A stretch of DNA of 64,000 nucleotides from Candidatus Micrarchaeum acidiphilum ARMAN-2 (GCA_009387755.1 GG697241.1:186001-250000), one strand, 5' to 3'. Positions 6,595 to 50,995 are shown, counted from the stretch's first letter. The notes: generated by a model not told the origin, from the letters alone. Numbers and translations: made by a program.

Positions 6595-6818
6595 TGCTTT
6601 GCTTCAAATAGAAGGGAAAGGGTTCGGATATCGCACATTGTACCATATGGCTAGAACTACTGCCTTTGTTCAAATATCCGACACACATTGGTCTTTCGAG
6701 CTGGCAAACCAGCCAGTTGCGCCAGTGCAGCATAAACTTCTTATGTGCCTGTTCAAAATTGAGATGTTTATTATCCTTATCCTTTCAAATAATCCTGTCT
6801 ATGCTATAGGTGATTTGC

Positions 6819-7838
6819 ATGGAGGATTTGGTGGAGCTTAGGAAAGAAATAGATGAGGTAGACGCTAGCATAATAGGGCTTGTGGCAAAGCGTTTTACAA
6901 TAACAAACGAGATAGGCAATATAAAAAGAGCTTCTGGGCTAAACGTGCACGATCCCGAAAGGGAAGCATACCTACTAAAAAGGTGGGCAGGGCTCGGGAA
7001 GAAATACGGGCTTGAAAAAGATATATCCATACCAATATTGGAACATTTGCTCAAATTCTCCAAAGCAAAAGAGGCAGAGCAAATAGATCCAAAGAATATA
7101 GTTGTGCTTGGGACAGGAAGCATGGCCGCGGCGCTCGGAATGCTAGCAAGAAGCGCCGGGCACAACGTATACGTAAAGGGCAGGAACCGCGAAAAAGAAA
7201 AGAAGCTTGCCGAACTCATAGGTGCAAATGTATTGCCTGCGAGAGAAATTAATACAGATTACATAATACTGTGCGTGCCCCCCACCGCATTCACCAAAGA
7301 GACGATCAAGCTGGTATCAAACTGCCATGGCGGCGCCCTAATGGACATATCCTCTTCAAAGACCGAATACTTCAAAAAGGCGATAAAATTCGCTTCCGAA
7401 TCAGGAATGAAAATGATATCAACACACCCTTTATTTGGGTTAGAAGATGCAAAGCGCGGCTCAGGCATTGCAATAATAACTGATGGCAAGACTGCAAAGG
7501 ACGTGGAAGATGCTGCAAGCTTCTGGACATCAACAGGGTTAGTTGCAATAAAGATGAGTATGGATGAGCATGAAAAGGCAATGGCGGTATCACAAGTTCT
7601 AAGGCATGCTTATGCGCTCGGCTTTTATGACAGCGTATCGGAGCTTTCGAATATGCTTAAAGTGGATTACGAGAAGGCATGCACCGCCAAGTTCATGCAG
7701 ATGCTTGAAAACGCAAAGGCGATAAAGTCGGAGGAGTGGGTTGCCGCAGAGATAGCCAAAAGCAACCCCTATTCAAAGCTGGTATATGAGATAGCCGAAA
7801 GGAATCTTCGAAAGCATGCAAGCAGCTTGATTTTTTAG
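6819..7838 (+). CDS. tyrA: bifunctional chorismate mutase / prephenate dehydrogenase
   Basis: A 339-residue fusion in tyrosine synthesis. Residues 1-85 form an AroQ-type chorismate mutase helix bundle (LRKEIDEVDASIIGLVAKR, ending in the HDPERE block). The rest is a TyrA-like dehydrogenase with a Rossmann start VVLGTGSMAAALG, a strand DYIILCVPPTA, the STHPLFG motif and a helical C-domain. Chorismate would be turned to prephenate and oxidised to 4-hydroxyphenylpyruvate. The start is the ATG at 6819 because GGTGAT at 6809-6814 is an SD with a 4-nt spacer; an in-frame GTG at 6810 lies inside that site. No other aromatic-pathway gene is near, so the rest of the route must be encoded elsewhere or missing. 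Confidence 0.85.
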   Translation: MEDLVELRKEIDEVDASIIGLVAKRFTITNEIGNIKRASGLNVHDPEREAYLLKRWAGLGKKYGLEKDISIPILEHLLKFSKAKEAEQIDPKNIVVLGTGSMAAALGMLARSAGHNVYVKGRNREKEKKLAELIGANVLPAREINTDYIILCVPPTAFTKETIKLVSNCHGGALMDISSSKTEYFKKAIKFASESGMKMISTHPLFGLEDAKRGSGIAIITDGKTAKDVEDAASFWTSTGLVAIKMSMDEHEKAMAVSQVLRHAYALGFYDSVSELSNMLKVDYEKACTAKFMQMLENAKAIKSEEWVAAEIAKSNPYSKLVYEIAERNLRKHASSLIF

Positions 7839-8033: not shown

Positions 8034-9302
8034 ATGGTGCCTCTTAATCATCAAAATCGCAAACCTATGTCTTTTGGGGATTCACTAGAGCTAATAAACG
8101 GAACTATCGTACTAAATGACAAGGTAGATAATTGCAATTTATTTATAAAAAATGGAGTCATAACAAAAATCGGAGTAGATGTGGGCGAGCATAATAAAAT
8201 AGATGCTTCTGGTATGTTCGTACTTCCTGGTTTAATAAATTCCCACACGCATTTGGGCGAGACAGTATTTAAGAATCTTATATCCTTTAAGGGACTCTAT
8301 GAATACATACGAAAAACAGATGATATAAACACCAAGTTACGATCAAACACAAGTTTTGTAAGAGCAGCTTCTGGCTATAAGTCAATTGTGGATTTTATAA
8401 AAGAAGGCATAACTACAATATGTGCCGCCCGCTGTGCAACTGAATGTGATAATGCGGGACTAAGATCCTTTTCAGGATATATTTTTATGAAAAGCAAGAA
8501 GCTACAACATTTTATTGATGAATTTAACGAAGCATTCTATGACTATATTAACAATATAAAAACCTCAAAACTTTCAAAACCAATCCTTTTTCTACATTCT
8601 ATAGAATATGTAGACTCAGATACGTTGGAATTGATAAGTAAATTACACAAAACATACAAACTGCCATTTACTGTGCACTTGTCTGAAACCAAATATGGAG
8701 AAGCAAAAGTAAGAAAAAATTTTGGGTGCAGTAGCACCGAATTATTAAATTCCTATGGTTTGATAAATGAAAGCGCTTTACTTGTGCATTGCTGTTACAC
8801 CTCAGAAACCGACTTGCAACTTATTAAAAAAAAGAAGGCAAATGTAATACTTTGTCCTACATCAAATAAACGACTGAATAATCGTACACCATCCTTAAAA
8901 ACATTGCTTAAACTCGGAATTAACACATCTATAGCTACAGATGGACTGGCAACAAATCTGTCTCCGAGTTTGCTTGCAGAATATAAATATTTAGCTAAAA
9001 TAGAAAATATAAATATGGAAAACAAATCATTTGCAATGTTGACTACTAATCCGGCAAAGGCACTTGGAATTAAAGCCGGGGCTATCCAAAAAGGCAATCT
9101 TTCCGATCTTATACTGCTCCAACCAGAAAAAGGTTATAAATTTAATGGCAATATACCGAGTTTATTTTGGCATTCAAAAATAAAATACGTTATAGTGGGC
9201 GGAAAACCAATTTTACTAATGGATAAGTATACTACTTTAAATTTAAGTGAAGTTAAAGCTAAATTCGACTTAGCGCGTACCATGGTCTTTAAAGCAGTAT
9301 GA
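8034..9302 (+). CDS. amidohydrolase, SAH/chlorohydrolase-type deaminase family
   Basis: A 422-residue metal-dependent hydrolase of the amidohydrolase superfamily (deaminase and chlorohydrolase branch). Metal ligands are visible: H71-x-H73 in INSHTHLGE, a histidine in FTVHLSETK, a histidine in LVHCCYTS, and the aspartate of IATDGLATN. The C-terminal strand set (GNLSDLILLQPEK; IKYVIVGGKPIL) closes the small beta-sandwich domain typical of these enzymes. Relatives deaminate adenosine-like or guanine-like compounds; the substrate here is unknown. It opens an AT-rich block of five radical-chemistry and accessory genes, suggesting it tailors a small molecule or nucleoside-like intermediate. Base use differs plainly from the flanking housekeeping genes. 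Confidence 0.75.
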   Translation: MVPLNHQNRKPMSFGDSLELINGTIVLNDKVDNCNLFIKNGVITKIGVDVGEHNKIDASGMFVLPGLINSHTHLGETVFKNLISFKGLYEYIRKTDDINTKLRSNTSFVRAASGYKSIVDFIKEGITTICAARCATECDNAGLRSFSGYIFMKSKKLQHFIDEFNEAFYDYINNIKTSKLSKPILFLHSIEYVDSDTLELISKLHKTYKLPFTVHLSETKYGEAKVRKNFGCSSTELLNSYGLINESALLVHCCYTSETDLQLIKKKKANVILCPTSNKRLNNRTPSLKTLLKLGINTSIATDGLATNLSPSLLAEYKYLAKIENINMENKSFAMLTTNPAKALGIKAGAIQKGNLSDLILLQPEKGYKFNGNIPSLFWHSKIKYVIVGGKPILLMDKYTTLNLSEVKAKFDLARTMVFKAV

Positions 9303-9580
9303 TTTTTCATCAAAAGACTGATGTTTAATACACTTCCAATCCTCAAAAGTTTTTAAATCATCTAAGGCGTATCTGTTTTGGTAACAACCTTCGGAGTTAG
9401 GTTTGTAGACTAATTCGAGAAATAATACTAATTTAAACTATCTATCTAACACATCACTAACCACAAAATAAATATATATTTGAAAGGTATATTATTAATC
9501 GCAATTGGAGCGAAGATAAAATAATCCGAAGTTATGTTAGAAACATTCTAATAACTAAAAATGAATAGCGGGCATGCCAA

Positions 9581-10822
9581 ATGTTAGAATACACAAATAA
9601 CGCACCTGAAATAAGCTACAAAGAATATGATCCATTGGAACACTACAAAGGAAGTGTCGGCCCTACAAACGAATTCGGTGACGCAATCGAAACGCAACCA
9701 GACATAAAAAATGTAGGTTGGACTATCGGAAACGAATGTCCATATAGATGCAAACACTGTTATAGCATGTCTGCAAGACAAAAAGGAAAAGATTTGTCAA
9801 AAGAAATGGTCGATCGAATAGTAGATCAGCTTGCAATAAACCATATAAAAACCGTTAACTTGGGTGGCAACGAACCACTTTTTACAAACGGGTTAAATCC
9901 TCAAAAAACAATGCTGCCTTACATCATAAATGAATTAGTATCTCACGGTATGATTGTCGGACTGACTACTAGCGGAATTACCCTAACATACCTATACAAG
10001 CACTATAAAAAGGCATTCGAGCAGCTAAACGATGTTGATGTCTCACTTGATTCTCCCATACCCACAGAACATAATTTCAATAGGGGCGCAAAACTTTTTG
10101 ATACTGCCATAGAAGCAATAAAAATATGTCAGGATGCTGGCAAGCCCCATTCTTTTATAATGGCCGGAATGAAATGGAACTTCACTATAGATAGGCTTGA
10201 AATGTTGGTGGATCTTGCCAAAAAATACGATGCAGATGTTAGAATAAATCCAATCAAACCCGTGGAACCAAAACACCGTAATATTGCATTGCCCCCAGAA
10301 ATGTACTACGCCGGATTCTCCTACTTAATGAGTGTCTGCAAGCCCATTGATCTAGGCGAACCGCCACTGGCCGCATTGACTGACTATCAAGGTGCAAATC
10401 GCTGCCCGTGCGGTAGAACCTCATTTAGGATTCATTCAATAACACCAGATGGAAAGATTTACGTGAGTCCCTGTGTATATCTACATGATTACAAATCCAC
10501 GTATGACTTGTTAAAACATGATCTTATTGAAATAATAAATTCACCACAATTTAAAGTTTTTAGGCAGCGACATGCGAATCCACAAATGATTGAAGATTGT
10601 AAAGATTGCCTCTTTTTGGAAAAATGTGGAGGCGGCTGTATTTCACGAGCTTATTTAGAAAATTTGCATAATACTGGCAAAAGAAGCATGCTTACCAAGG
10701 ATCCCTATTGCCCATTGAAGATAGCACCAAACGACAAATTTCCTAAAAGGCCACGCATTGAAACAAGCGAATGCCTAGTTCATATGGACTACCTTTGCAC
10801 ATGGATAGGTAAACCAAAGTAG
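9581..10822 (+). CDS. radical SAM protein with SPASM domain
   Basis: A 413-residue enzyme. The radical SAM [4Fe-4S] motif is C53-x3-C57-x2-C60 (NECPYRCKHCY), followed by the SAM-contacting LGGNEP block. The C-terminal 130 residues carry a SPASM-type cysteine set (NRCPCGRT, VSPCVYLH, CKDCLFLEKCGGGC, DPYCPL) expected to bind auxiliary clusters. SPASM enzymes usually modify ribosomal peptides or proteins, or act in cofactor synthesis. The next gene, another radical SAM enzyme, begins 15 nt after the stop, and both starts are preceded by near-identical GGG-x-ATGCCA segments. Together they look like one transcription unit. The substrate is not known. Confidence 0.85.
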   Translation: MLEYTNNAPEISYKEYDPLEHYKGSVGPTNEFGDAIETQPDIKNVGWTIGNECPYRCKHCYSMSARQKGKDLSKEMVDRIVDQLAINHIKTVNLGGNEPLFTNGLNPQKTMLPYIINELVSHGMIVGLTTSGITLTYLYKHYKKAFEQLNDVDVSLDSPIPTEHNFNRGAKLFDTAIEAIKICQDAGKPHSFIMAGMKWNFTIDRLEMLVDLAKKYDADVRINPIKPVEPKHRNIALPPEMYYAGFSYLMSVCKPIDLGEPPLAALTDYQGANRCPCGRTSFRIHSITPDGKIYVSPCVYLHDYKSTYDLLKHDLIEIINSPQFKVFRQRHANPQMIEDCKDCLFLEKCGGGCISRAYLENLHNTGKRSMLTKDPYCPLKIAPNDKFPKRPRIETSECLVHMDYLCTWIGKPK

Positions 10823-10837
10823 AAATGGGAATGCCAC

Positions 10838-12406
10838 ATGAAAAACGGCATAATTGTATTAGCTACCCCTGCTCCAATATCTCATCGTACACCAGAAGAG
10901 AATTTAGGTTTGGGTTATTTAGCAGCGGTATTACGTCAAAAAGGTTATAATACTATCATAGTTGATGGCTGGCTTTCTAATATGTCCTATAGTGAAATAG
11001 CGTCAAATATACTCAATTACAAAAATATAATATGGGTGGGCTTCTCTTCCTACAGATCAAATATGGCCCAAACAATGAAAAGCGTAGAAATAATAAAGGC
11101 AGCCGATAAGTCGATTCCAATAGTTGTTGGCGGTTATGGTCCAACTTTCGACGCCGAAATCTTCTTAAAACGTGGAGCAGATGTGGCAGTAAGGGGCGAA
11201 GCAGAAAATATCGTTACGAAACTGACTGAACACTTCATATCTGGATTACCTTCGCTTAGCAATATAGAAGGGATAAGTTTTTTTGACGGGCATTCAATAG
11301 TGAATAACAAACCACTGCAAAAAATATCCAATCTAGATTCTTTACCGTTTCCTGCTAGAGACACAATGGGCAGTGTATTAAAGCGAAGAATCCCAGTTCA
11401 TGTTTTGAGCGCAAGGGGTTGCATGGCCAACTGCATATTTTGCTCTATAACATCGTTCTGGCACCTGTCAAGCGGGCCGCAATGGAGGCAAAGATCTATA
11501 AAAAATTTTGTAGATGAACTGGAGTTCCTTTCAAAACAGGGAGTACGCCATTTTAAAGTTGTAGACGACAGTATGTTGGAACCTCCCAGGGGCTTGAAAT
11601 GGTGCCGCGAACTAGCTGATGAAATTATAGCCAGAAACCTTTCTATAAGACTTCGCAGTTCTGTTAGGGCGGATAGGGTAAATGAAGATATAGTCAGAGA
11701 ATTATCAAGAGCAGGTTTTTTTTCATTTTCTTGCGGCATAGAAAACTTTTCCAATTCCGCACTCAAACGCATGAATAAGACAGCCACACTTGAGCAGAAT
11801 CTAACGGCCCTAAATGCTTTTAAGAAATATAAAATATATGTCCAGGCTGGCCATATCTTATTTGACTACGGAACTACATTGGATGAACTTTGGGAAAATT
11901 TAAGATATATGGAAAAGTACATATGGATAATAAGCAAAGGTGTTTTCACAGAAATGTACGCAGCAGATAATACCCCATACACGAGGTTACTACAAAAAAA
12001 AGGTCTGTTTGTGCGCGATGAAAGTGGCCTAGGCAACAATAAATATTTTGTACAGGATCAGAGCGCGCGTAATGTCTACGACGCACTTAAAGAGTGGCAC
12101 AAGAACCACATGAAATTATATGATAAGGCTATAGACCCCCTTTCAAGTCCAAAAGCATTAGAAGAGGACGAACTCGCATCCATATACCAACTTTACATAA
12201 AGTTACATAAAAAAGACATTGAAATATTTAAAGCTCTCATGAAAATGGCCAATTACAACGAAAAACGTGAAATTTTGTTGGACTTTGTAAAAAACGAAAT
12301 AGTGCAAAGCGCGGAATGGTACAATAACATAGATGCTGCAGTAAACCGTCTATATGAAAAATTCGGGTTGATCTATGACGCAATGGAAAATCCTTTTATA
12401 TATTAA
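10838..12406 (+). CDS. B12-binding-type radical SAM protein
   Basis: A 522-residue protein with an N-terminal Rossmann-like domain (residues about 1-150) as in cobalamin-binding radical SAM enzymes. The stretch IVVGGYGPTFDAEIFLKRG fits that fold, but the DxHxxG cobalamin-ligand motif is not evident. The radical SAM core follows, with CMANCIFC (C-x3-C-x2-C) after VLSARG. The last 130 residues are helical and family-specific. Members of this class methylate unactivated carbons, close rings or add methylthio groups. It directly follows the SPASM enzyme in the same direction and likely acts on the same product. The gene is AT-rich like its neighbours. Confidence 0.8.
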   Translation: MKNGIIVLATPAPISHRTPEENLGLGYLAAVLRQKGYNTIIVDGWLSNMSYSEIASNILNYKNIIWVGFSSYRSNMAQTMKSVEIIKAADKSIPIVVGGYGPTFDAEIFLKRGADVAVRGEAENIVTKLTEHFISGLPSLSNIEGISFFDGHSIVNNKPLQKISNLDSLPFPARDTMGSVLKRRIPVHVLSARGCMANCIFCSITSFWHLSSGPQWRQRSIKNFVDELEFLSKQGVRHFKVVDDSMLEPPRGLKWCRELADEIIARNLSIRLRSSVRADRVNEDIVRELSRAGFFSFSCGIENFSNSALKRMNKTATLEQNLTALNAFKKYKIYVQAGHILFDYGTTLDELWENLRYMEKYIWIISKGVFTEMYAADNTPYTRLLQKKGLFVRDESGLGNNKYFVQDQSARNVYDALKEWHKNHMKLYDKAIDPLSSPKALEEDELASIYQLYIKLHKKDIEIFKALMKMANYNEKREILLDFVKNEIVQSAEWYNNIDAAVNRLYEKFGLIYDAMENPFIY

Positions 12407-12410
12407 TATC

Positions 12411-12560
12411 TTAAAGAATTCTACCGACTTCGTAGGTAGTTAAAATATCTATCTATTTTTACATAAATATTCTTGGCAGCAGCATTGCCATGGTTTAACA
12501 CGACCTGATATTCTGCCTCCGAAGTGTAAACATGTCTAGTGCGAACTATAAACGGTTGGT
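12411..12560 (+). repeat. diverged direct repeat, copy A
   Basis: Starts with CTTAAAGAATTCTACCG and continues through TTCGTAGGTAGTTAAAATATC, later GAAGTGTAAACATG. It matches copy B at 13104-13230 in the same orientation: CTTAA-R-GAATTCTA-Y-CG near one end and a 13-nt identity (GAAGTGTAAACAT) near the other, with the middle poorly conserved. CTACC...GGTAG can form a small hairpin. The two copies flank the pyrophosphatase-like gene. Confidence 0.55.
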
Positions 12561-12729
12561 GAAAGGTGGTGTTTCGAACATCAACAATCAAACCATTTAT
12601 TCAATTAAGACGTTCAAGGATATCGCCTACTTTGTCTGTGGAGAGGATTCGAACGAAAAGGTTTATAAGGGCAAGGCCCCTATATCATTCTCTCCATATA
12701 AGCTTAGCTTTCATACCACCAAAGTTTAA
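12532..12729 (+). CDS. small ORF of 65 residues, possible peptide gene
   Basis: Begins inside repeat copy A and its 3' end overlaps the end of the pyrophosphatase-like gene on the other strand by 45 nt. The product is basic and hydrophilic (SSANYKRLVKGGVSNINNQ...), has a single cysteine and no signal peptide or membrane segment. No Shine-Dalgarno site is obvious. It is listed because it lies directly downstream of two radical SAM genes, where a peptide substrate gene could be expected. Copy B of the repeat has ATA where this ATG stands, so no second ORF exists there. Coding status is uncertain. Confidence 0.3.
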   Translation: MSSANYKRLVKGGVSNINNQTIYSIKTFKDIAYFVCGEDSNEKVYKGKAPISFSPYKLSFHTTKV

Positions 12730-13026
12730 AAAAGACTCAACCATTTTTGCCTCGCTGATACTCATGTTCCAAAGTATTTTAATCTCGGTATCGTGCTTTA
12801 CTGAATCTACTGTTTTTATAATCCCAACAACTCCTTTACCCTCTTTACCTACGAAAACATCAATTTCTTCGCCGTCTGTTCCAATAGTATTTTTTATATA
12901 GCCGTAATCCATAGGATAAATCCTATTGCTGTATCGCGGATGTGGTGTACCTCTTGGGCGGTCTATAAAAATACCATTTTTTTGGATCAATTCTTCAAAT
13001 TTCTGCCAATCTATAGTTTCGCTCAT
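12685..13026 (-). CDS. short inorganic pyrophosphatase-like protein
   Basis: 113 residues, against about 170 for normal family I pyrophosphatases. The core active-site strand is recognisable: YPMDYGYIKNTIGTDGEEID aligns with the family block YP-x2-YGYI...DGDPxD, with Glu in place of the middle metal-binding Asp. The second acidic pair is present in VDSVKHDTE. The N-terminal catalytic Glu-Lys-Glu strand appears reduced to FIDRPRGTPHPRY, and the C-terminal helix is absent. It may hydrolyse pyrophosphate released by a ligase or transferase, or a different phosphoanhydride. A TATA-like ATTTATAATC and a GGGTGA site precede the ATG. Two diverged direct repeats flank it. Confidence 0.65.
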   Translation of the reverse strand: MSETIDWQKFEELIQKNGIFIDRPRGTPHPRYSNRIYPMDYGYIKNTIGTDGEEIDVFVGKEGKGVVGIIKTVDSVKHDTEIKILWNMSISEAKMVESFLNFGGMKAKLIWRE

Positions 13027-13103
13027 TTATTCACCCTGTTATTGTTATTTTATCCGAATTTGATTATAAATGTATCTATGCAGTAAAATCTTGGAACTAT
13101 TCA

Positions 13104-13230
13104 GTCTTAAGGAATTCTATCGGTTTCGTTGGCAGTTTAAATATCCCTATGATGATCGTGCGCACAATATCCCTTGTTGATACTCGCTAGAGAAGTGTAA
13201 ACATAAATAGTCCGACAACTATTTTTGGGA
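13104..13230 (+). repeat. diverged direct repeat, copy B
   Basis: Second copy of the element at 12411-12560, same orientation. Begins AGTCTTAAGGAATTCTATCG and ends around GAAGTGTAAACATAAATAG. It is about 30 nt shorter in the middle than copy A. It lies between the 3' end of the HPr-kinase-like gene and the promoter of the pyrophosphatase-like gene. Confidence 0.5.
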
Positions 13231-13265
13231 GATAAAAGTGCTTATATCGGCAGGTGCCCTAATAA

Positions 13266-14312
13266 CTATCTGTTATTATCCCGTAGCAGCTTTGAACTAT
13301 CATAGTCTGTATGCGCACCGTTCTTAAGATACTGCTTTATGCTCCTTGCTATTTCGGGCAACCTCCCTTCAATGTATATTACTGGCTTTGAGGCTAGAAA
13401 CTGATTTGAAAAATATAATCGCTTTTTCTTTAGAGTATAAGAAACTTCATCAGGATAGGGAATCAAAGCACTCATTAAAATGGCTGGCATGCGTTCACTA
13501 TATTCAGACAAAGCGGTATAAAATGCCAATAATTCAGAATCTGTTTTTCCTTTTTTCTCTAGCACACACAAGTTGCTGTCCATTTTTCTAAGAATAATTA
13601 CAGCTTTAACTCTAAGTGGATAACCAGATTCACATATACCCAGTTGGCTTGGCCATACTGAAATACGGTTTACTTGAACCGCACTATCGGTGTCAAGATT
13701 ACCGCTTTTAATAGATTCTTTGGTTTGTAGGTTCTGAAATTCGTTAAATTCATTCCGTATAGATCCCAGTCTGAGTGACGATTTCTTAACACCACCTATC
13801 ACCCTCATATCTTTACTGTCCACAAAGATTCTGTTTCCTGCTGCGTATGCCAACTCTTTATCTAGCATGCACGTGTATACTGCCGTGGTAGTTTTACCTG
13901 CTCCTGACGGACCTATAATAAGTACACATTCATCGCCGTAAGATACTGCGCTACCATGTATTGAGAATATCCCTTTTTTATTGAGTTTCATTTCTATTAA
14001 TCTCGACGTTATAAGTACTGCATCTATTACAATTCGATCCAAGTCTGCTGGAGCCGAAAAACGTACGCTATAGCCATTTACTTTTAACGATCTAGGTCCA
14101 TATGCAATATTAATATCTATATCTATACTTAATTTTTTACCTGCAATAAACTGGACTTCCGGTAAAAATTGAGTGAATGTAGATTGAAACTTTTGATACA
14201 TGTCCTCCGGAAGTTTTAGATGTACTCCCACACCAAATAAATCAAAACCAGCATCAATTAGTCTTTGCTTAGTTTTATTTTTTGGCATTAACCTGTCAAT
14301 CATTCTTAACAC
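13266..14312 (-). CDS. HPr kinase/phosphorylase-like P-loop protein
   Basis: 348 residues. Residues 115-142 show the HprK family signature: a strand with IHGSAVSYGDECVLIIG running into the Walker A GPSGAGKTT, and later FVDSKDM as a possible Walker B-like strand. The N-terminal 110 residues are an uncharacterised mixed domain. HprK-like kinases phosphorylate Ser residues in proteins, and homologs occur in peptide-modification clusters with radical SAM enzymes. The start is either GTG 14312, which is leaderless about 26 nt after TATA box 14332-14343, or ATG 14303, which has GGTG upstream. It is convergent with the radical SAM genes and has the same AT-rich composition. Confidence 0.65.
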   Translation of the reverse strand: MLRMIDRLMPKNKTKQRLIDAGFDLFGVGVHLKLPEDMYQKFQSTFTQFLPEVQFIAGKKLSIDIDINIAYGPRSLKVNGYSVRFSAPADLDRIVIDAVLITSRLIEMKLNKKGIFSIHGSAVSYGDECVLIIGPSGAGKTTTAVYTCMLDKELAYAAGNRIFVDSKDMRVIGGVKKSSLRLGSIRNEFNEFQNLQTKESIKSGNLDTDSAVQVNRISVWPSQLGICESGYPLRVKAVIILRKMDSNLCVLEKKGKTDSELLAFYTALSEYSERMPAILMSALIPYPDEVSYTLKKKRLYFSNQFLASKPVIYIEGRLPEIARSIKQYLKNGAHTDYDSSKLLRDNNR

Positions 14313-23342: not shown

Positions 23343-23882
23343 CTAGGGTTTAACCCCAAATCTGATTTTAGCGTATCCTAACCTATTCAGGCGATCCTCT
23401 ATGTCAGAATAGGATTTGCCGCACAAGGTTCCTCCTGCAAGAAACTCCTCCTGCGTGACATCTGCAAGGCAAAACTCTGGAATTTCAAACGATTGCATGC
23501 CATTTTCATTCTTAAATTCAAAGTCCACAAGAATCAGGCCCTTAAGGCTTCCGGAAAAGACATCTATCTCTGCACGCATGCCTTCATATGGGTAGAAGTA
23601 CCTGGTTTTATGCACCCTTTTGCCCTCTAATAAGGCAAATTCGTCATATTCTTCCTTGGTCAGTCGGATCGTCTGCTCCAGCTGCTTTGACGAATCTCTG
23701 CCTAAAACAGGCTCCTTTTTGGTTATTTCGTACCTGTTTCCAGCCTTCCTTATTCTGATGTGTGGGTGGCTAGAAGACCTAGGTATGTAAATGTCAAGCA
23801 TTTCTTCATGATCGCAGTCGTTTAGTCCTTCAGGTATGTACTTTATCAGGAAAGTCCTTTCCAGTTCAATAGAGTCCACCAT
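23343..23882 (-). CDS. CYTH-domain protein
   Basis: 179 residues. The N-terminal IELERTFLIK is the ExExK-like signature of the CYTH tunnel fold (class IV adenylyl cyclase, thiamine triphosphatase and triphosphate hydrolases). Alternating charged strands follow (PHIRIRKAGNRYEITKKEPV; RYFYPYEGMRAEIDVFSG; LVDFEF), which supply the Arg/Lys/Glu lining of the tunnel. Members bind triphosphates with Mg or Mn. Substrate is unknown; triphosphatase is more likely than cyclase in archaea. A TATA-like TTTTAAATAG lies upstream on the minus strand. A second CYTH protein is encoded divergently about 190 bp away. Confidence 0.75.
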   Translation of the reverse strand: MVDSIELERTFLIKYIPEGLNDCDHEEMLDIYIPRSSSHPHIRIRKAGNRYEITKKEPVLGRDSSKQLEQTIRLTKEEYDEFALLEGKRVHKTRYFYPYEGMRAEIDVFSGSLKGLILVDFEFKNENGMQSFEIPEFCLADVTQEEFLAGGTLCGKSYSDIEDRLNRLGYAKIRFGVKP

Positions 23883-24072: not shown

Positions 24073-24627
24073 GTGGCGAATGAAATGGAGCAAGAGATAA
24101 GGTTGATAGTAAATGACTTCAAGGATGTAAAAAACCGTATTGTAAGTGCTGGTGCAGTTCTTGAATCTTCCAAAACGCAGTACGATACATACTACGGCAG
24201 CATTAGAGCAATGAGGGCTCTCGGAAAGTCCTTCATTCTTAGGGTAAGGAAGTCCGGAAGCTCCAACTTCCTGACATTCAAAGGTGCAACTGGGAAAGAA
24301 GGTTATTATGAGGAATACGAAACTAGGATAGCGAATGGTAAAAGCGCGGCAAAAATAATTGAGAGATCCGGCTTCGAAAAGATAATTTTTGTAAAAAAAC
24401 ATAGGGAGCTGTACAGATATAAGAACAGCACAATAAACTTGGATTCTGTAGACGAGCTTGGAAATTTTGTCGAAATAGAAATAATTTCTGAAAAGAACGC
24501 AGACAAAAGACTCAATTCAATAATCAAGGAACTGAGACTGGAAGAGTACAAAAGCATAAGGAAGGGTTATGTCTCTTTGCTGCTTGAGAAAAACGGGTCC
24601 AAATACCATAAATACATAAAAGAGTAA
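24073..24627 (+). CDS. CyaB-type CYTH-domain protein
   Basis: 184 residues. It begins MEQEIRLIVNDF (ExExR/K signature) and continues with the CyaB-like blocks KTQYDTYYGS, SFILRVRKSGSSNFLTFKG, EEYETRIA, LYRYKNSTINLDSVDELGNFVEIEI and KGYVSLLL. This is the class IV adenylyl cyclase (CyaB) branch of CYTH. In archaea the reaction is generally unproven; triphosphate binding is the safe statement. The start shown is GTG at 24073; ATG at 24085 is an alternative that keeps the signature. It is divergent from the other CYTH gene and clearly a different subfamily from it. Confidence 0.75.
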   Translation: MANEMEQEIRLIVNDFKDVKNRIVSAGAVLESSKTQYDTYYGSIRAMRALGKSFILRVRKSGSSNFLTFKGATGKEGYYEEYETRIANGKSAAKIIERSGFEKIIFVKKHRELYRYKNSTINLDSVDELGNFVEIEIISEKNADKRLNSIIKELRLEEYKSIRKGYVSLLLEKNGSKYHKYIKE

Positions 24628-44073: not shown

Positions 44074-44166
44074 CTATACACCCAATTAACTTTTTAGATT
44101 AATTTTATATAGTTAAGTAGCAAAGTAGATGTATTAAGGTTGCCTAAAATACGACCGCGGGATCAT

Positions 44167-45204
44167 ATGCAGATAAGCTCCCCATTCATAAGCAGCGTCT
44201 TCGGCTACGTCTACTCGAAGCTGTTGCAGCTGCTGCCTTCATCTATAGACAAGGCGGTATCATTACTTGTAGGCATGCTTGTATTTGCAATAATAATCGG
44301 CGTGCTCGTGACCCTGTTTGTGTACCTTTTCGGATGGGGAGAGAGAAAGCTGATGGCTAGGGCGCATTCAAGGCACGGCCCGACCTATGTGGGCAAGTTC
44401 GGCATACTCCAGAACCTCGCAGACGTCGTCAAGCTCCTTGCAAAGGAAAACATAATACCAGACAAGGCTGACAACCCTCTGTTCAAGCTGTCACTCCCGA
44501 TAGTATATGCTCTTTTTGTACTCATCGTAATATTTACTCCTCTTACCTCAACATTTGTCGGCATAAACACAAGCATAGCCCTAATTGCTGTGTTCCTTAT
44601 ACTGTCCTTCATACCTATACTGATGTTCATTATAGGATGGGCCTCTGGCAATAAATTCGGATCCATCGGCGCGCAGAGGTCCATAGTTATGCTCATAAGC
44701 TATGAGATTCCGCTTCTTCTAGTCATAGCCGCGATAGCAATGCTTGCTCACAGCTACAGCCTTTCCACAATAGTTAACGACCAGTCAAGTATCTGGTATG
44801 TGGCGCTCATGCCCATAGGGTTCGTAGTCTTTTTCATAGTAATGCTCGCGGAGATGGAAAGGCCCCCGTTCGACCTAAGGGAGGCCGACAGCGAGCTGAT
44901 AGCAGGGTGGCTTACCGACGTAAGCGCGCCATACTACGGCCTTGCTCTGTTCTTGGACTACACAAGGATATTCGTCGGAACCCTGCTTATAGCAGTGCTG
45001 TTCTTCGGGGGTTGGGGCGGTCCGCTGCTCCCGCCGTTTGCCTGGATACTCATCAAGATAGTAATACTTTCAATAGCGATTGTGATAATACGTGTTACCG
45101 TCGTCAGAATGAAGATAAACAGGCTGCTGAGGTTCGGATGGCTATACCTGTTGCCCCTGTCAATCATTAATTTAATTGTTACATTTGTATTATTCATAAG
45201 GTGA
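44167..45204 (+). CDS. nuoH: NADH-quinone oxidoreductase subunit H (complex I)
   Basis: About 345 residues with eight hydrophobic helices. The family motif EMERPPFDLREADSELIAGW lies around residue 230. It holds acidic residues of the quinone-to-proton path. NuoH links the quinone site to the antiporter-like subunits in the membrane. A longer reading from TTG 44140 is possible; ATG 44167 is preferred for its GGGAT-like site. It is first of a seven-gene run nuoHIJKLMN with tight spacing. TTTTATATAG at 44102-44111 may be the promoter. Confidence 0.9.
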   Translation: MQISSPFISSVFGYVYSKLLQLLPSSIDKAVSLLVGMLVFAIIIGVLVTLFVYLFGWGERKLMARAHSRHGPTYVGKFGILQNLADVVKLLAKENIIPDKADNPLFKLSLPIVYALFVLIVIFTPLTSTFVGINTSIALIAVFLILSFIPILMFIIGWASGNKFGSIGAQRSIVMLISYEIPLLLVIAAIAMLAHSYSLSTIVNDQSSIWYVALMPIGFVVFFIVMLAEMERPPFDLREADSELIAGWLTDVSAPYYGLALFLDYTRIFVGTLLIAVLFFGGWGGPLLPPFAWILIKIVILSIAIVIIRVTVVRMKINRLLRFGWLYLLPLSIINLIVTFVLFIR

Positions 45205-45208
45205 ACAG

Positions 45209-45574
45209 ATGATAGTGAAGCCCCTCATAAACGTTGCCAAGGAGGTCCTGAAGCCTCCGTCTACTCTGGAATTTCCGGAGAACAGGGAAAACCTAACGGA
45301 CAACTACAGGGGAATACACAAGCTCGACATGAAAACGTGCATAAGCTGCGCCGCGTGCGCAAGGATATGCCCTAATCAGACCATAGACATGGTCGACACG
45401 GAAACCCCAGACAAAGGTACAAAGAAAATGCCGCTCATAAATCTGGAGAGGTGCCTGTTCTGTGCGCTGTGCGAGGAAGTATGCCCTACAAAATGCCTTA
45501 TACTTACAAAGGACTACAGCTTCGAGGCTTATGACAGGCGCGACTACATAAAGAGACCCGAAGACCTGAAGTAA
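45209..45574 (+). CDS. nuoI: NADH-quinone oxidoreductase subunit I (two 4Fe-4S clusters)
   Basis: 121 residues. Two ferredoxin motifs, CISCAACARICP and CLFCALCEEVCP, bind the clusters N6a and N6b that pass electrons towards NuoB and quinone. It starts 4 nt after nuoH. Its presence shows the complex is a true electron-transfer complex and not a bare Mrp antiporter, although NuoB, C and D are not in this window. Confidence 0.9.
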   Translation: MIVKPLINVAKEVLKPPSTLEFPENRENLTDNYRGIHKLDMKTCISCAACARICPNQTIDMVDTETPDKGTKKMPLINLERCLFCALCEEVCPTKCLILTKDYSFEAYDRRDYIKRPEDLK

Positions 45575-45585
45575 ATAGTGTTTGC

Positions 45586-46062
45586 ATGCTGGAAACCGCA
45601 TTACTCGGAATAGTTGCGATACTGGATTTCATAGCGATATTCTCAATATTCGTGTTCAAGGACATATTCCACTCCGGAATAGCACTGGCATTCGCATTTC
45701 TCTTCAACTCCATAGCGTTTGTAGTGGTGGGCCAGCCCCTCCTCGCTATAATACAGCTTTTCATACTGATCGGGGGCATATCCACATATCTAATACTGGG
45801 TGTGGCTTCTTATGGGCTATCCAACTTTAGGCATTCGAACAGGCTGCTGCTTGCCATACTCTCGGTAGTTATCTTCATTGCAATGTCATATCCGCTAATA
45901 GGCACCACCCTCATTTCCGCCCGGCAAAACTACTTCACAGGCACGGCAATACCCGGAGGCATAGTTCCATACGTGGCCATATACTACCTCGCTGCATTCA
46001 TGGTTTTCACAACTTCAATAGGGTCGCTCCTTCTACTCAAGAGAATAGGTGCCAAAAAATGA
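45586..46062 (+). CDS. nuoJ: NADH-quinone oxidoreductase subunit J
   Basis: 158 residues with five hydrophobic helices. The early segment DIFHSGIALAFAFLFNSIAFVVVGQPLLAIIQLFILIGGI matches the NuoJ family pattern near helices 2-3, which takes part in coupling. It lies between nuoI and nuoK and overlaps nuoK by 4 bp (ATGA-type junction). Confidence 0.85.
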   Translation: MLETALLGIVAILDFIAIFSIFVFKDIFHSGIALAFAFLFNSIAFVVVGQPLLAIIQLFILIGGISTYLILGVASYGLSNFRHSNRLLLAILSVVIFIAMSYPLIGTTLISARQNYFTGTAIPGGIVPYVAIYYLAAFMVFTTSIGSLLLLKRIGAKK

Positions 46063-46361
46063 TACCGATATACCCGATACTATTCGCATTTGCAATATTC
46101 TCAATAGGTGCCGCAGGCATAGCAACCAGCAGGCACATGGTAATAATGGTGTTCGCAGTAGAGGTGGTGCTCGTGGCATCGGCCCTGCTCGGAACAGTAT
46201 TCTACTTTTACTTCGTTGGCAGCAGCTCAATACTGCCTTTCCTATTTGCAGTATGGGCCATTGCAGCAAGCGAGGCCATACTTCTGGTGATATTCTACAG
46301 GTACATGGTAAGGGCCGATGTGAGCCTTGACGTAACAAAGCTTTCAAGGATAAAGGAATGA
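46059..46361 (+). CDS. nuoK: NADH-quinone oxidoreductase subunit K
   Basis: 100 residues with three membrane helices, the normal size. The buried Glu residues important for proton transfer are seen in VFAVEVVLVAS and WAIAASEAILLV. Translationally coupled to nuoJ, followed 4 nt later by nuoL. Confidence 0.9.
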   Translation: MIPIYPILFAFAIFSIGAAGIATSRHMVIMVFAVEVVLVASALLGTVFYFYFVGSSSILPFLFAVWAIAASEAILLVIFYRYMVRADVSLDVTKLSRIKE

Positions 46362-46365
46362 TCAG

Positions 46366-48159
46366 ATGCTGCTAGAAATACTCCCAATAGTCCCCTTGGT
46401 CATAACCGCACTGGCAATATTTCCGATGAAGAGGGGCTACAGGTACATTGGATACGCCTCGCTGGCGGCAAGTCTGCTTTCGCTTCTAGTCATAGCATAC
46501 ATATTCCTTTACGTACCTGAGGGCATGTCCAGCATGCCATGGTTTGCTGTCGGCGGCTTCACGTTCAGCATAGCGACTTCGACTTTTGCACTGAATAAAA
46601 TGCTGCTCCTGCTTGTCGGAATAATAACTCCGCTGATACTCACCTACTCGATAGGATTCATGGACGTGATGAGCGAGCAGCCCAGGTACTACTTCGAGAT
46701 GCTCGTATTCGCTTCGTCGATGATGCTTTTTTCGGTCGCCGCGAATCTTATACTGATATTTCTGGCATGGGAACTTCTGGGAATAACAAGTTACCTGCTT
46801 ATAGGCTTTTGGTATCACAGGCCAAACGCACCTGGCGCAGCCAGAAAAGCGATAACCACGATACTGATAGGCGACGTCGCGCTGCTTGCTGCGATAGTGA
46901 TACTGTGGAACGCCTATCATACAATGAACATCTACTCGATACTGTCGGCGCCTTCCAGTGCCGTACTTCCGTTCGCCCTGGCTCTTGTGCTAATAGCAGC
47001 ATTCACTAAATCCGCACAGTTCCCGTTCCACGAATGGCTTTCTGACGCCATGGAGGGTCCAACTCCTGTCTCGGCATTCCTGCATTCGTCTACAATGGTC
47101 AAGGCCGGCGTGTTCCTCATAGCTGTGCTGCTTCCGCTGTTCGCACATGCGGGGCTACTCTGGGTTCTTGTTTCGGTTGGCCTAGTCACGGCTGCAATAG
47201 GGGCTGCAAACGCGCTTACATCACACCACATAAAGAAAATACTCGCCTACTCCACAATAGAAGACCTTGCCCTGATGTTCGTGGCCCTGGGCCTGAACGC
47301 GATACTGGCAGCCATGCTTTTCTTCATAGTGCAGGCATTTTACAAGGCGCTGCTTTTCATGAGCGCAGGATCAATGATGAAGGCGAACAACGGCGAGGAG
47401 GACATATACAAAATATACGGAAGCTACAAGAACAAGCTGCTCCTCGTGACTGCGGCCATAGGCGCGATATCCCTGGCGGGCGTGTTTCCGCTCAGCGGAT
47501 TCTTCGGCAAGGTTGCGATAGACACCAGCGCGGCAAACAATTTTGTGGTCTATGCTGTGATATCAGTAATAGAGATAGCCAGCAGCCTATACATATTCAG
47601 GTGGCTATTCATCCCAGCGAGGAAGCCGGCGCAAAACAAGGACTTCGCGCTTGGAGAAAGGTACTCCCATCTTCCAAAGACCATGCTGGCCCCGGCTGTG
47701 GTTCTGGCCGCACTGGTTTTCATAGGCTCAGCCGCCTATTTCATGCTGCCTTCATTCATAGTGCCTACGCAGTATGTCAAGATACCGTATGGCCTAAGCA
47801 TAGGGGTGCTTGACGCAGCGATAGAAACAGTCCTCGTGGCCCTGGGGCTATATTTTGCATACTACCTTTTCCGCAAAGGCAACGCCTCAAAGCTCCCATC
47901 CAAAACACCGCTGCGCTTCCTGCTGTACAACAGCCCTGCGGTGAACAGGTTCTACGACTATGTTGTGGCAGCCGCCATGGGCATTTCACGCGGATTTTAC
48001 AAGGCGGACTTTTCAATATACAGCATAATAAAGGCCGGCGCACGCGGCCTCCTCGGAATAGACAACGACATACGCCTGTCGGTCAACGGTCAGGTAAACA
48101 GGTATCTCATGGCTTTCATAATCGGTCTAATCCTGTTGGTGCTGTTCATGGCGATCTAG
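46366..48159 (+). CDS. nuoL: NADH-quinone oxidoreductase subunit L
   Basis: 597 residues, antiporter-like proton channel. Key elements: FLAWELLGITSYLLIGFWY (buried Glu), TKSAQFPFHEWLSDAMEGPTPVSAFLHSSTMVKAG (the Lys/His core), and a long C-terminal part that in this subunit forms the lateral helix. Slightly shorter than the bacterial form (about 610). It abuts nuoM directly, nuoM starting at the next base. Confidence 0.95.
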   Translation: MLLEILPIVPLVITALAIFPMKRGYRYIGYASLAASLLSLLVIAYIFLYVPEGMSSMPWFAVGGFTFSIATSTFALNKMLLLLVGIITPLILTYSIGFMDVMSEQPRYYFEMLVFASSMMLFSVAANLILIFLAWELLGITSYLLIGFWYHRPNAPGAARKAITTILIGDVALLAAIVILWNAYHTMNIYSILSAPSSAVLPFALALVLIAAFTKSAQFPFHEWLSDAMEGPTPVSAFLHSSTMVKAGVFLIAVLLPLFAHAGLLWVLVSVGLVTAAIGAANALTSHHIKKILAYSTIEDLALMFVALGLNAILAAMLFFIVQAFYKALLFMSAGSMMKANNGEEDIYKIYGSYKNKLLLVTAAIGAISLAGVFPLSGFFGKVAIDTSAANNFVVYAVISVIEIASSLYIFRWLFIPARKPAQNKDFALGERYSHLPKTMLAPAVVLAALVFIGSAAYFMLPSFIVPTQYVKIPYGLSIGVLDAAIETVLVALGLYFAYYLFRKGNASKLPSKTPLRFLLYNSPAVNRFYDYVVAAAMGISRGFYKADFSIYSIIKAGARGLLGIDNDIRLSVNGQVNRYLMAFIIGLILLVLFMAI

Positions 48160-49560
48160 ATGTTCCCGATAATACTGCTGATAATAGTTCCGTCAATAGC
48201 GCTGGTGGCAGCACTGCTTTCGGGCCCCCGCGCCAGCAGGCCGATATCCATCGCCTCTACGCTTATAGGCTTCCTGATAACCGCGTACATAACCTATAAC
48301 GCCTTTACCTCTTCGTCGATAAACATAATCGAGAAGTTTTCATACATTCCTTCCCTCGGAATAGGCCTGAGCTTCAGGATAAATTTCATAGCCATAGTGC
48401 TTCTGATAATGTCTTCGATAGTGCTGCTCGCGACGTCTGTGGCGGGCAACCCTGAAAGGGACAGGACAAGGCTCTCCAGTTCACTGATACTGCTTTTCCA
48501 GATCGCGGCGGCCGGGCTGTTCACCTCAGCCAACCTTTTCATGTTCTTCATATTCTGGGACATAGGCGTAATCGCGATGTTCTTCATGATAAACATACTG
48601 GGCTCGGCAAATAGGAAGATAGCATCAATGGAATTTCTAATATTCGAAATATTCGCGAGCATGATGCTGCTCCTCGGCATAATCGTGCTTTATTTCTACA
48701 CTCCTGGGCATTCGCTGAACATCACCACCATAACACAGACCGCCGCGGCCCTGCCTGCATCCATCCAGGAAATAATCTTCGTGCTGCTGTTCCTTGCATT
48801 CATGGTAAACATGCCTCTGTTCCCTACACACTTCTGGCTTCCGGACGCCCATTCGGAGGCGTCAACCCAGGGCTCGATGCTGCTTTCCGGCGTTCTGACC
48901 AAATTCGGCGGATTTGGAATGCTTCTGCTGTTTGAAATGCTTCCCATAGCGCAGTCCGCCTACATCTACGTTGCGGGGCTTGCAGTAATCTCAATATTTT
49001 ACTCAATCTTTGTGCTAATGCGACAGAACGACATGAAGAGAATCGTAGCGTACTCGACCATAGTCGAGATGGGCATAGTCATGCTGGGCATAAGCGCCCT
49101 GAACACATTCGGGACAAATGGCGCGCTCTACCTTATGCTTTCTCACGGCGTCACAATAGCCCTGCTTTTCCTCGTCGTCGGCTCAATGCACTACATATTC
49201 GGGGACAGGGACATAAGGAGCCTCCGCGGAGTAGTGAGCGGTGCAGCCTCATCCGCATACGCATTTGTAGCCGGCATACTGGCGATGACCGGCGTACCTC
49301 TGACATCTGGCTTCATAGCAGACCTGCTGCTTTTCATAGGAGCAGAGCAGCGCTTCGGATATTATGGAGTGCTGCCCCTTGCGGCTGTAATGCTGCTCGG
49401 AGCGTACATGTACTTCGCGGTTAACAAGTCAGTGCTATCAAACAGGGAAAAGTCCAACGTGGTGCACGTGCTACCGAGATCCGAAAAGCTTGGGTATGCC
49501 ATACTCTTAATAGCTGCGTTTGTGTTCGGAATATTTCCGTTTATAATATTTAGGATTTAA
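48160..49560 (+). CDS. nuoM: NADH-quinone oxidoreductase subunit M
   Basis: 466 residues, second antiporter-like subunit. Motifs: FFIFWDIGVIAMFFMI (the first buried acidic site appears as Asp), MPLFPTHFWLPDAHSEASTQGSMLLSGVLTKFGG, and the helix-broken second half typical of the Mrp family. The start ATG follows the nuoL stop with no gap. Confidence 0.95.
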   Translation: MFPIILLIIVPSIALVAALLSGPRASRPISIASTLIGFLITAYITYNAFTSSSINIIEKFSYIPSLGIGLSFRINFIAIVLLIMSSIVLLATSVAGNPERDRTRLSSSLILLFQIAAAGLFTSANLFMFFIFWDIGVIAMFFMINILGSANRKIASMEFLIFEIFASMMLLLGIIVLYFYTPGHSLNITTITQTAAALPASIQEIIFVLLFLAFMVNMPLFPTHFWLPDAHSEASTQGSMLLSGVLTKFGGFGMLLLFEMLPIAQSAYIYVAGLAVISIFYSIFVLMRQNDMKRIVAYSTIVEMGIVMLGISALNTFGTNGALYLMLSHGVTIALLFLVVGSMHYIFGDRDIRSLRGVVSGAASSAYAFVAGILAMTGVPLTSGFIADLLLFIGAEQRFGYYGVLPLAAVMLLGAYMYFAVNKSVLSNREKSNVVHVLPRSEKLGYAILLIAAFVFGIFPFIIFRI

Positions 49561-49591
49561 ATTATGTAAAAATCATGCAAAGGTCATTTTG

Positions 49592-50995
49592 ATGGCAACA
49601 AGTCAAATACTGCTTTTCTTGCCTGCGCTGATAGCCGTGCTGGCCTTCCTTGGCGTAATCGCGATTTTCCACAGGAAAAGCAGGTTTACCCTTGCTTCAA
49701 TGTCTGTGGTGCTGGCCATAATATCCATAGTCTCTGTCTATCTGCTCTCGGCATCAGTCAACACCACACTATTAGAGGTGCTTCACGTATACCCATTCTC
49801 AATGCTGCTGCTGTCGTTTTTCTCAGCTGCATTAATACTCATACTTGTGCTATTCTATGAAGACAAAGGAGAATTCAACGCGCTCGCGCTGCTTCTGTCT
49901 TTCTCGGCAGTCGGCATATTCATAATAGCGATGGCGAATTCGCTTATATCAATACTTCTGGCATCGGAATTGGTTGCGGTCCCAACAATATTGATGGTTG
50001 CGCTGAACGGATTCCACCGCACAGAAGCAGCGGCCAAGCTTTTCCTGCTGAGCGCCATTTCAATAGCCGTAATGTCCTTTGCAATTGCCCTGATATTCCC
50101 ATATGATGCAAGCTTCAGCCTCGCCGTCGCCTCTGCGAGCCTTCACATAAGCGGAAACTACATAGTGCTGCTCTCAATGGCGCTCTTCATAGCTGCGTTT
50201 GCCGTCGAAGCAGCATTTTTCCCGTTCAACCTATGGGTTTCAGATGTGTATTCTGGCTCTCCCGGCTACATCACGGCCTTTATAGCCGGAATAAACAAGA
50301 AGGTTGCCTTTGTAGCAACCCTAGAAGTGCTATTCATAGTGTTTGCCGCATACCACAGCCAGATATCATACATTTTCGAGATCCTTGCGATATTTACGAT
50401 GTTTTTTGGGAACCTTGTAGCGATGGCGCAGCGCAACATAAAGAAGATGTTCGCATACTCATCAATATCCCAGGCCGGATATATAGCCGTAGGGATAGCC
50501 GCGGTTTCTGCGCTAGGCATTACTGCGGTAATATTCCAGATCGTGGCCCACGCGTTCATGATAATAGGAGCGTTCGCAATAGTCTTCTGGCTGGAAGAAA
50601 AAGGGATAATAAGCCTGGACGACTACAGAGGGCTTGGCTCGAGGAACGGTCTTGCGGCAATTGCACTTACTCTCTTCATGCTTTCAATGGCGGGAGTGCC
50701 TCCACTGATGGGTTTCGTGGGCAAATTCCTTCTCTTTTCAAGCGCCATATACGGCGGGCTTCTCGCGCTGGCCCTGATCGGAGTCCTGAACAGCTTCCTG
50801 TCGATATACTACTATGGAAGGCTGATAAGCTACATCTATGAAGACAGGCCCAGCAAGCCCCTTCTCCTGCAATGGCAGGTAAAAGCGGTTGTCCTGGTAT
50901 CCCTAGCGGTCATTCTGATATTTGGCATATATCCAGAGCCGCTCATCAGCGGTGCAACCATAGCTGCAAAAAGCCTAATCAACTTTGTCCCTTGA
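49592..50995 (+). CDS. nuoN: NADH-quinone oxidoreductase subunit N
   Basis: 467 residues, third antiporter-like subunit, ending the module. Recognisable core: LLASELVAVPTILMVAL (buried Glu), AAFAVEAAFFPFNLWVSDVYSGSPGYITAFIAGINKKVAF, and the later KKMFAYSSISQAGY. The ATG at 49592 follows AGGTCA and a 31-bp gap after nuoM. Its last 21 bp overlap the end of cysS on the other strand. No nuoA-G follows. Confidence 0.95.
   Translation: MATSQILLFLPALIAVLAFLGVIAIFHRKSRFTLASMSVVLAIISIVSVYLLSASVNTTLLEVLHVYPFSMLLLSFFSAALILILVLFYEDKGEFNALALLLSFSAVGIFIIAMANSLISILLASELVAVPTILMVALNGFHRTEAAAKLFLLSAISIAVMSFAIALIFPYDASFSLAVASASLHISGNYIVLLSMALFIAAFAVEAAFFPFNLWVSDVYSGSPGYITAFIAGINKKVAFVATLEVLFIVFAAYHSQISYIFEILAIFTMFFGNLVAMAQRNIKKMFAYSSISQAGYIAVGIAAVSALGITAVIFQIVAHAFMIIGAFAIVFWLEEKGIISLDDYRGLGSRNGLAAIALTLFMLSMAGVPPLMGFVGKFLLFSSAIYGGLLALALIGVLNSFLSIYYYGRLISYIYEDRPSKPLLLQWQVKAVVLVSLAVILIFGIYPEPLISGATIAAKSLINFVP

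Follow-up and report, generated by a model that had tools for sequence, protein, structure and literature searches.

To our knowledge, few pathways are known in which a pair of radical S-adenosylmethionine (SAM) enzymes is directed at nucleotides. Albucidin, a nucleoside of Streptomyces albus subsp. chlorinus, requires just two radical SAM genes, one of them OxsB-like, and the thymidylate kinase and pyruvate phosphate dikinase (PPDK) genes in the albucidin region are dispensable for albucidin (PMC7074753). Oxetanocin A is described as a two-gene pathway that pairs the HD phosphohydrolase OxsA with the B12 radical SAM enzyme OxsB, TS-like, glycosidase and ThiD enzymes are employed in pathways to bacimethrin and hydroxymethylpyrimidine, and those to bacimethrin start from CMP (PMC12345177). 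We describe here a five-gene block at positions 8034 to 14312 of a 64,000-nucleotide stretch (the window; GCA_009387755.1, GG697241.1:186001-250000) of the genome of the archaeon Candidatus Micrarchaeum acidiphilum ARMAN-2, and we consider it probable that the block represents a horizontally spread pathway making a modified nucleoside or nucleotide by means of two radical SAM enzymes. An earlier note on the window had proposed an uncharacterized biosynthetic or peptide-tailoring system acquired by transfer.

Albucidin synthesis resembles the block in its use of two radical SAM enzymes (AlbA/AlbB, the same as AlsA/AlsB), one of them OxsB-like and B12 dependent, on a nucleoside or nucleotide (PMC7074753; PMC13331322). 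AlbA, however, is described as biotin-synthase-like, and HprK, pyrophosphatase-like and deaminase genes, all present in the block, are not reported as being required for albucidin. Oxetanocin A shares with the block a B12 radical SAM enzyme, OxsB being the nearest solved structure, and the OxsA-OxsB pairing mirrors those relatives of the block that carry an HD protein, but the described pathway is without a SPASM enzyme, whereas the window is without an HD gene and its B12 enzyme is just remotely OxsB-like. The TS-, NDT-, ThiD- and TenA-like genes of actinomycete relatives are reminiscent of the bacimethrin-type pathways (PMC12345177) but are missing from the archaeal block, and an O-methyltransferase like that of bacimethrin synthesis did not appear among the conserved members. 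Among described pathways, we found none with this combination of genes, in agreement with the earlier note.

All five open reading frames (ORFs) of the block are present, and Pfam supports each of the families named in that note. Genes for an amidohydrolase, a SPASM radical SAM enzyme and a B12-binding radical SAM enzyme run in one direction and face, convergently, genes for a small pyrophosphatase-like protein and an HprK-like protein. The GC content of the block genes is 0.33 to 0.40, against 0.468 ± 0.031 in the 41 other genes of the window, and their GC content at third codon positions (GC3) is 0.27 to 0.36, against 0.538 ± 0.061; all five lie within the six lowest-GC3 genes out of 46, and the regions upstream of the block genes are AT-rich. 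The visibly AT-richer composition noted earlier for the block is thus borne out by comparison with its flanks.

The gene set recurs elsewhere. In a census by hidden Markov model searches over 35 SPASM loci, window included, an ortholog of the B12 enzyme lay adjacent to the SPASM gene in 23, some being fragments at contig ends, and the pyrophosphatase-like protein occurred in 14; the earlier note had regarded homologs never found together as the sign of a chance assembly, and the result is the opposite. A third slot is occupied by an HprK-like protein (12 loci), a thymidylate-kinase-like (TMK-like) protein matching PF02223 (9 loci), or an HD protein whose profile matches SAMHD1 and other HD phosphohydrolases (7 loci), with never two of these sharing one locus, and supported branches of the SPASM tree require a minimum of two changes for HprK and of two for TMK. 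Actinomycete loci share a run of genes for the B12 enzyme, SPASM enzyme, APH, HprK, PNP-like, TS-like, deoxyribosyltransferase-like (NDT), ThiD, DAO, TenA and CodA-like proteins, with Pfam matches to PF00303, PF05014, PF01048, PF08543 and PF03070 in addition to the CodA-like and APH proteins. This conserved cluster of ~11 genes (L017, L018, L019, L020, L021, L023, L025 and L026) looks like a pathway of the pyrimidine or thiamin-antivitamin type with radical chemistry added. A PPDK-like gene adjoins the SPASM gene in two Nitrospirota loci. Two further micrarchaeal genomes of the host class carry a sister system (L069 and L070), with a divergent short SPASM protein of ~320 amino acids that ends in HAGYLCTIIL or HASYLCTIIL, together with two HprK-like proteins, methyltransferase-like and HAD-like ORFs, the system deaminase and a B12 radical SAM enzyme.

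The amidohydrolase (8034..9302, plus strand), of deaminase type and assigned from Pfam/NCBIfam matches, its clade and its residues, matches Amidohydro_1 (1e-39) and keeps the metal ligands H71, H73, H215, E218, H252 and D303 expected of the amidohydrolase deaminases, which include those of S-adenosylhomocysteine (SAH), methylthioadenosine (MTA) and 5'-deoxyadenosine, and it falls in a clade of its own. Seven system-linked amidohydrolases, from the window, L069, L070, two Patescibacteria and two Thermoactinomycetaceae, form a single clade of archaeal and bacterial members with 100/100 support, leaving out 15 ordinary amidohydrolases of the phylum, among them paralogs in the window genome and in the genomes of L069 and L070. 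No other single piece of evidence argues as strongly as this clade for the block being one system, because the same specialized enzyme accompanies the radical SAM enzymes in two domains of life. System-specific residues E76, R133, S147 and K156, unlike those of ordinary SAH/MTA-deaminase-like paralogs, would line the pocket, given how close to the metal site they lie. Since a generic paralog is encoded separately in the genome and the putative pocket residues are altered in the system clade, a dedicated substrate appears more likely than mere scavenging of SAH or 5'-deoxyadenosine.

The SPASM radical SAM enzyme (9581..10822, plus strand), the core of the system, is assigned from Pfam/NCBIfam matches, conserved cysteines and a structure model. 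Its Pfam domains are Radical_SAM, Fer4_12 and SPASM (PF13186). The CxxxCxxC motif is formed by C53/C57/C60, nine more cysteines are invariant (C275, C277, C298, C340, C343, C349, C353, C377 and C406), and the SPASM pattern CX2CX5CX3C-gap-C is found as C340-C343-C349-C353-C377, invariant across 31 sequences; a C-terminal motif, LVHxDYLCTxIxxP, is also conserved. The enzyme stays under the cut-off of every named NCBIfam SPASM family (MftC, NirJ, PqqE, etc.), with a best score of 82 bits against 265. Its predicted structure (pLDDT 90) matches anSME, BlsE, ChlB and MoaA about equally, with SuiB and viperin structures also matched, and a phmmer search of the PDB with the single sequence returned no match. 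The B12-binding radical SAM enzyme (10838..12406, plus strand), identified from Pfam and from OxsB as its nearest solved structure, has the domains PF02310 (B12-binding) and PF04055 (Radical_SAM) and an invariant CxxxCxxC motif (C195, C199 and C202). It is the sole PF02310 protein found in the host genome, in which radical SAM matches total ten, and it aligns best, among solved structures, with OxsB (E=1.4e-34 over ~350 residues), a remote homology.

Relatives of the SPASM enzyme with 46 to 67% identity occur in Actinomycetota, Pseudomonadota, Bacillota, Nitrospirota, Patescibacteria, Woesearchaeota and another micrarchaeote; at least 31 SPASM loci in these seven lineages came out of a scan of genome contigs, the number being a lower bound because short patterns were used. 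With tblastn, proteins 54 to 62% identical were located on Phaeobacter, Streptomyces clavuligerus and Enterococcus plasmids. In the groups sampled, carriers of the family are few: at the threshold used, a SPASM relative was present in 4 of 295 genomes of the host phylum (two of the four divergent); the family occurred in 1 of 380 genomes (the one used as the center) of one phylum-level group of Patescibacteria, and an orthologous B12 enzyme scored above 800 bits in 2 of 394 Streptomyces genomes, where the next best match reached 241. In the SPASM tree, the window enzyme and that of the other micrarchaeote, its nearest relative, group together (99/96) and are nested in an otherwise bacterial group (100/99). 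Viral contigs held no relatives, and there is therefore no sign of phage carriage. The block was acquired by transfer, as had been surmised, and has spread horizontally, and the DPANN-type host that had been assumed is consistent with an archaeal genome of 1.01 Mb (8 contigs, 96.6% complete) and with a nearest SPASM relative from a micrarchaeote.

The small class I inorganic-pyrophosphatase-like protein (12685..13026, minus strand; Pfam and residue comparison) gives a Pyrophosphatase/InPase match that is weak, though over the cut-off. At 113 amino acids, against ~170 for a full-length class I domain, it comprises the homologous core only, and it reads DGEEID (D51, E53 and D56) instead of the canonical DxDxxD of class I inorganic pyrophosphatases, with K83 invariant. 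Two forms of this class I pyrophosphatase core exist across loci, one with an NDxDDK ending and the other, that of the window, with KxDxExK. The HprK-like protein (13266..14312, minus strand; Pfam, alignment and predicted fold) matches the HprK-like P-loop family and has the Walker A motif and the PEPCK/HprK fold of HPr kinase/phosphorylase, its model (pLDDT 72) being best matched by PEPCK, but not the catalytic Asp (NDD) motif. It is remotely homologous to the actinomycete HprK-like proteins (hhalign E 8e-7). Stand-alone HprK-like proteins with a GNR motif in related genomes (L064, L065 and L066) represent an older archaeal family; that of L064 adjoins HAD- and TMK-like ORFs and that of L066 a NUDIX-like ORF.

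We suggest that the block is probably a two-radical-SAM nucleoside pathway built on a SPASM family that lies under all named-family cut-offs. As a first step, the kinase slot, filled here by the HprK/PEPCK-fold protein and elsewhere by a TMK-like one, would make or hold a nucleoside as its phosphate. The SPASM and B12 enzymes would then rearrange, dehydrogenate or alkylate the sugar or base in consecutive 5'-deoxyadenosyl-radical steps, much as albucidin is made by two radical SAM enzymes and oxetanocin A by OxsB; the pyrophosphatase-like protein, or an HD hydrolase in other lineages, would take off pyrophosphate or phosphate, and the dedicated amidohydrolase would deaminate an intermediate or the product. 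The nucleotide substrate, the order of steps and the product are all conjectural in this scheme, whereas the set of genes, its conservation and transfer, the clade of dedicated deaminases and the intactness of the core cofactor motifs are directly shown. More tentatively, a genome-reduced DPANN archaeon may make a modified nucleoside metabolite with an unrecognized SPASM class, the module circulating among Streptomyces, Patescibacteria, Proteobacteria and archaea while its kinase or phosphohydrolase parts are exchanged for one another.

Several observations weigh against this interpretation. What points to a nucleotide substrate is the gene neighborhood; the mixed fold matches of the SPASM model do not settle the substrate, few structures of B12-radical SAM enzymes have been solved, OxsB being the nearest of these, and the best-scoring sequence family for the B12 enzyme in NCBIfam is BchE. 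The mutual exclusivity of the third slot in part tracks phylogeny in the SPASM tree. The archaeal HprK-like protein reads GNR, invariant in the aligned archaeal members, in place of the Asn-Asp-Asp of bacterial relatives (SNDD in the actinomycete ones), and this form is present without a SPASM gene in five related genomes; kinase activity is uncertain because the usual catalytic Asp pair is gone, and the protein may be no kinase or a chance neighbor. Phosphoryl transfer may proceed in it by a different arrangement, or it may bind nucleotide without phosphate transfer or be a recruit from a resident family. Finally, several loci (L005, L016 and others) add nonribosomal peptide synthetase (NRPS)-type AMP-binding, aminotransferase or transporter genes, so that end products probably differ by lineage and may in some cases be amino-acid linked.

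The last of these points leads to the best-surviving alternative, which we regard as possible but rather unlikely: that the radical pair acts on an amino acid or sugar in a pathway to an amino-acid-derived or other non-nucleotide small molecule, NRPS-linked products included, with nucleotide-type neighbors supplying other moieties. An Enterococcus locus with an AMP-binding/carrier protein fits such a pathway, as do the aminotransferases, MFS/MATE transporters and PAPS-reductase-domain protein beside SPASM genes in other loci, but these partners vary by lineage, whereas proteins of the TMK, HD, pyrophosphatase and deaminase types recur, some of them of independent origin.

Tailoring of a ribosomally synthesized and posttranslationally modified peptide (RiPP) by the HprK-like kinase and SPASM enzyme, the second option of the earlier note, is improbable. 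SPASM enzymes and HprK-related kinases are known in RiPP clusters, the SPASM model resembles anSME and SuiB, and the kinases of RiPP and lasso clusters (TIGR04352/TIGR04355) have the HprK/PEPCK fold and Walker A motif in common with the block protein, but the latter scores 21.8 bits against a cut-off of 200 (a weak TIGR04355 match) and is without the catalytic Asp pair. Small ORFs lying among or next to the block genes have no conserved counterpart in other loci at E≤0.01, and hence the precursor gene expected near the modifying enzyme of a RiPP cluster was not found; the Pfam scan of the SPASM enzyme revealed nothing beyond its three domains and no peptide-binding domain; and HprK is missing or replaced in most bacterial loci. 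A nucleoside or nucleotide pathway fits better because the recurring partners are TMK, SAMHD1-like HD, TS, NDT, PNP and ThiD proteins and deaminases: functions that phosphorylate, dephosphorylate or deaminate nucleotides are met with repeatedly beside the radical enzymes, whereas a conserved precursor peptide is not. The biosynthetic half of the earlier proposal is supported, as a co-inherited system, and the peptide-tailoring half is not.

Equally doubtful is a viperin-like defense, with an antiviral, chain-terminating nucleotide as the product of the SPASM enzyme. Structural matches to viperin and TMK-like kinases beside SPASM genes in Patescibacteria are compatible with it, but the match to the PADLOC prokaryotic viperin (pVip) models is weak (40 bits) and limited to the radical SAM core, the SPASM domain is extra to the pVip architecture, a scan of a defense library gave nothing but these weak matches and one candidate model, and actinomycete versions resemble antibiotic clusters with transporters and APH. 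A chance assembly of unrelated AT-rich genes, although the HprK-like gene also stands alone in relatives and the gene order is unlike that of bacterial loci, is refuted, since the genes are found together time and again in many phyla and the deaminases form a single clade.

If the block does encode a dedicated nucleoside-type pathway, its presence in an ultra-small archaeon with no other B12-binding-domain gene found would be unexpected. The SPASM family lies under all named-family cut-offs and shows strong conservation in two domains of life. Bacterial carriers such as Streptomyces, Phaeobacter and Paenibacillus make substrate and product directly determinable, and the system may prove a source of novel antimetabolites of the nucleoside type and of unfamiliar radical chemistry.

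Upstream of the block, at 6810-7838, lies a gene for a fusion of chorismate mutase with a prephenate-dehydrogenase-like domain, which was found in just 2 of 30 sampled relatives, at 32 to 33% identity; for this reason, the insertion boundary is not definable by empty-site analysis. Elsewhere in the window, two adjacent divergent ORFs (23343-23882, minus strand, and 24073-24627, plus strand) have, by eye, the look of CYTH/CyaB-type triphosphatases, and positions 44140-50995 hold what appears by eye to be a Complex-I-like run of NuoH, I, J, L, M and N types in this archaeal genome of ~1 Mb.

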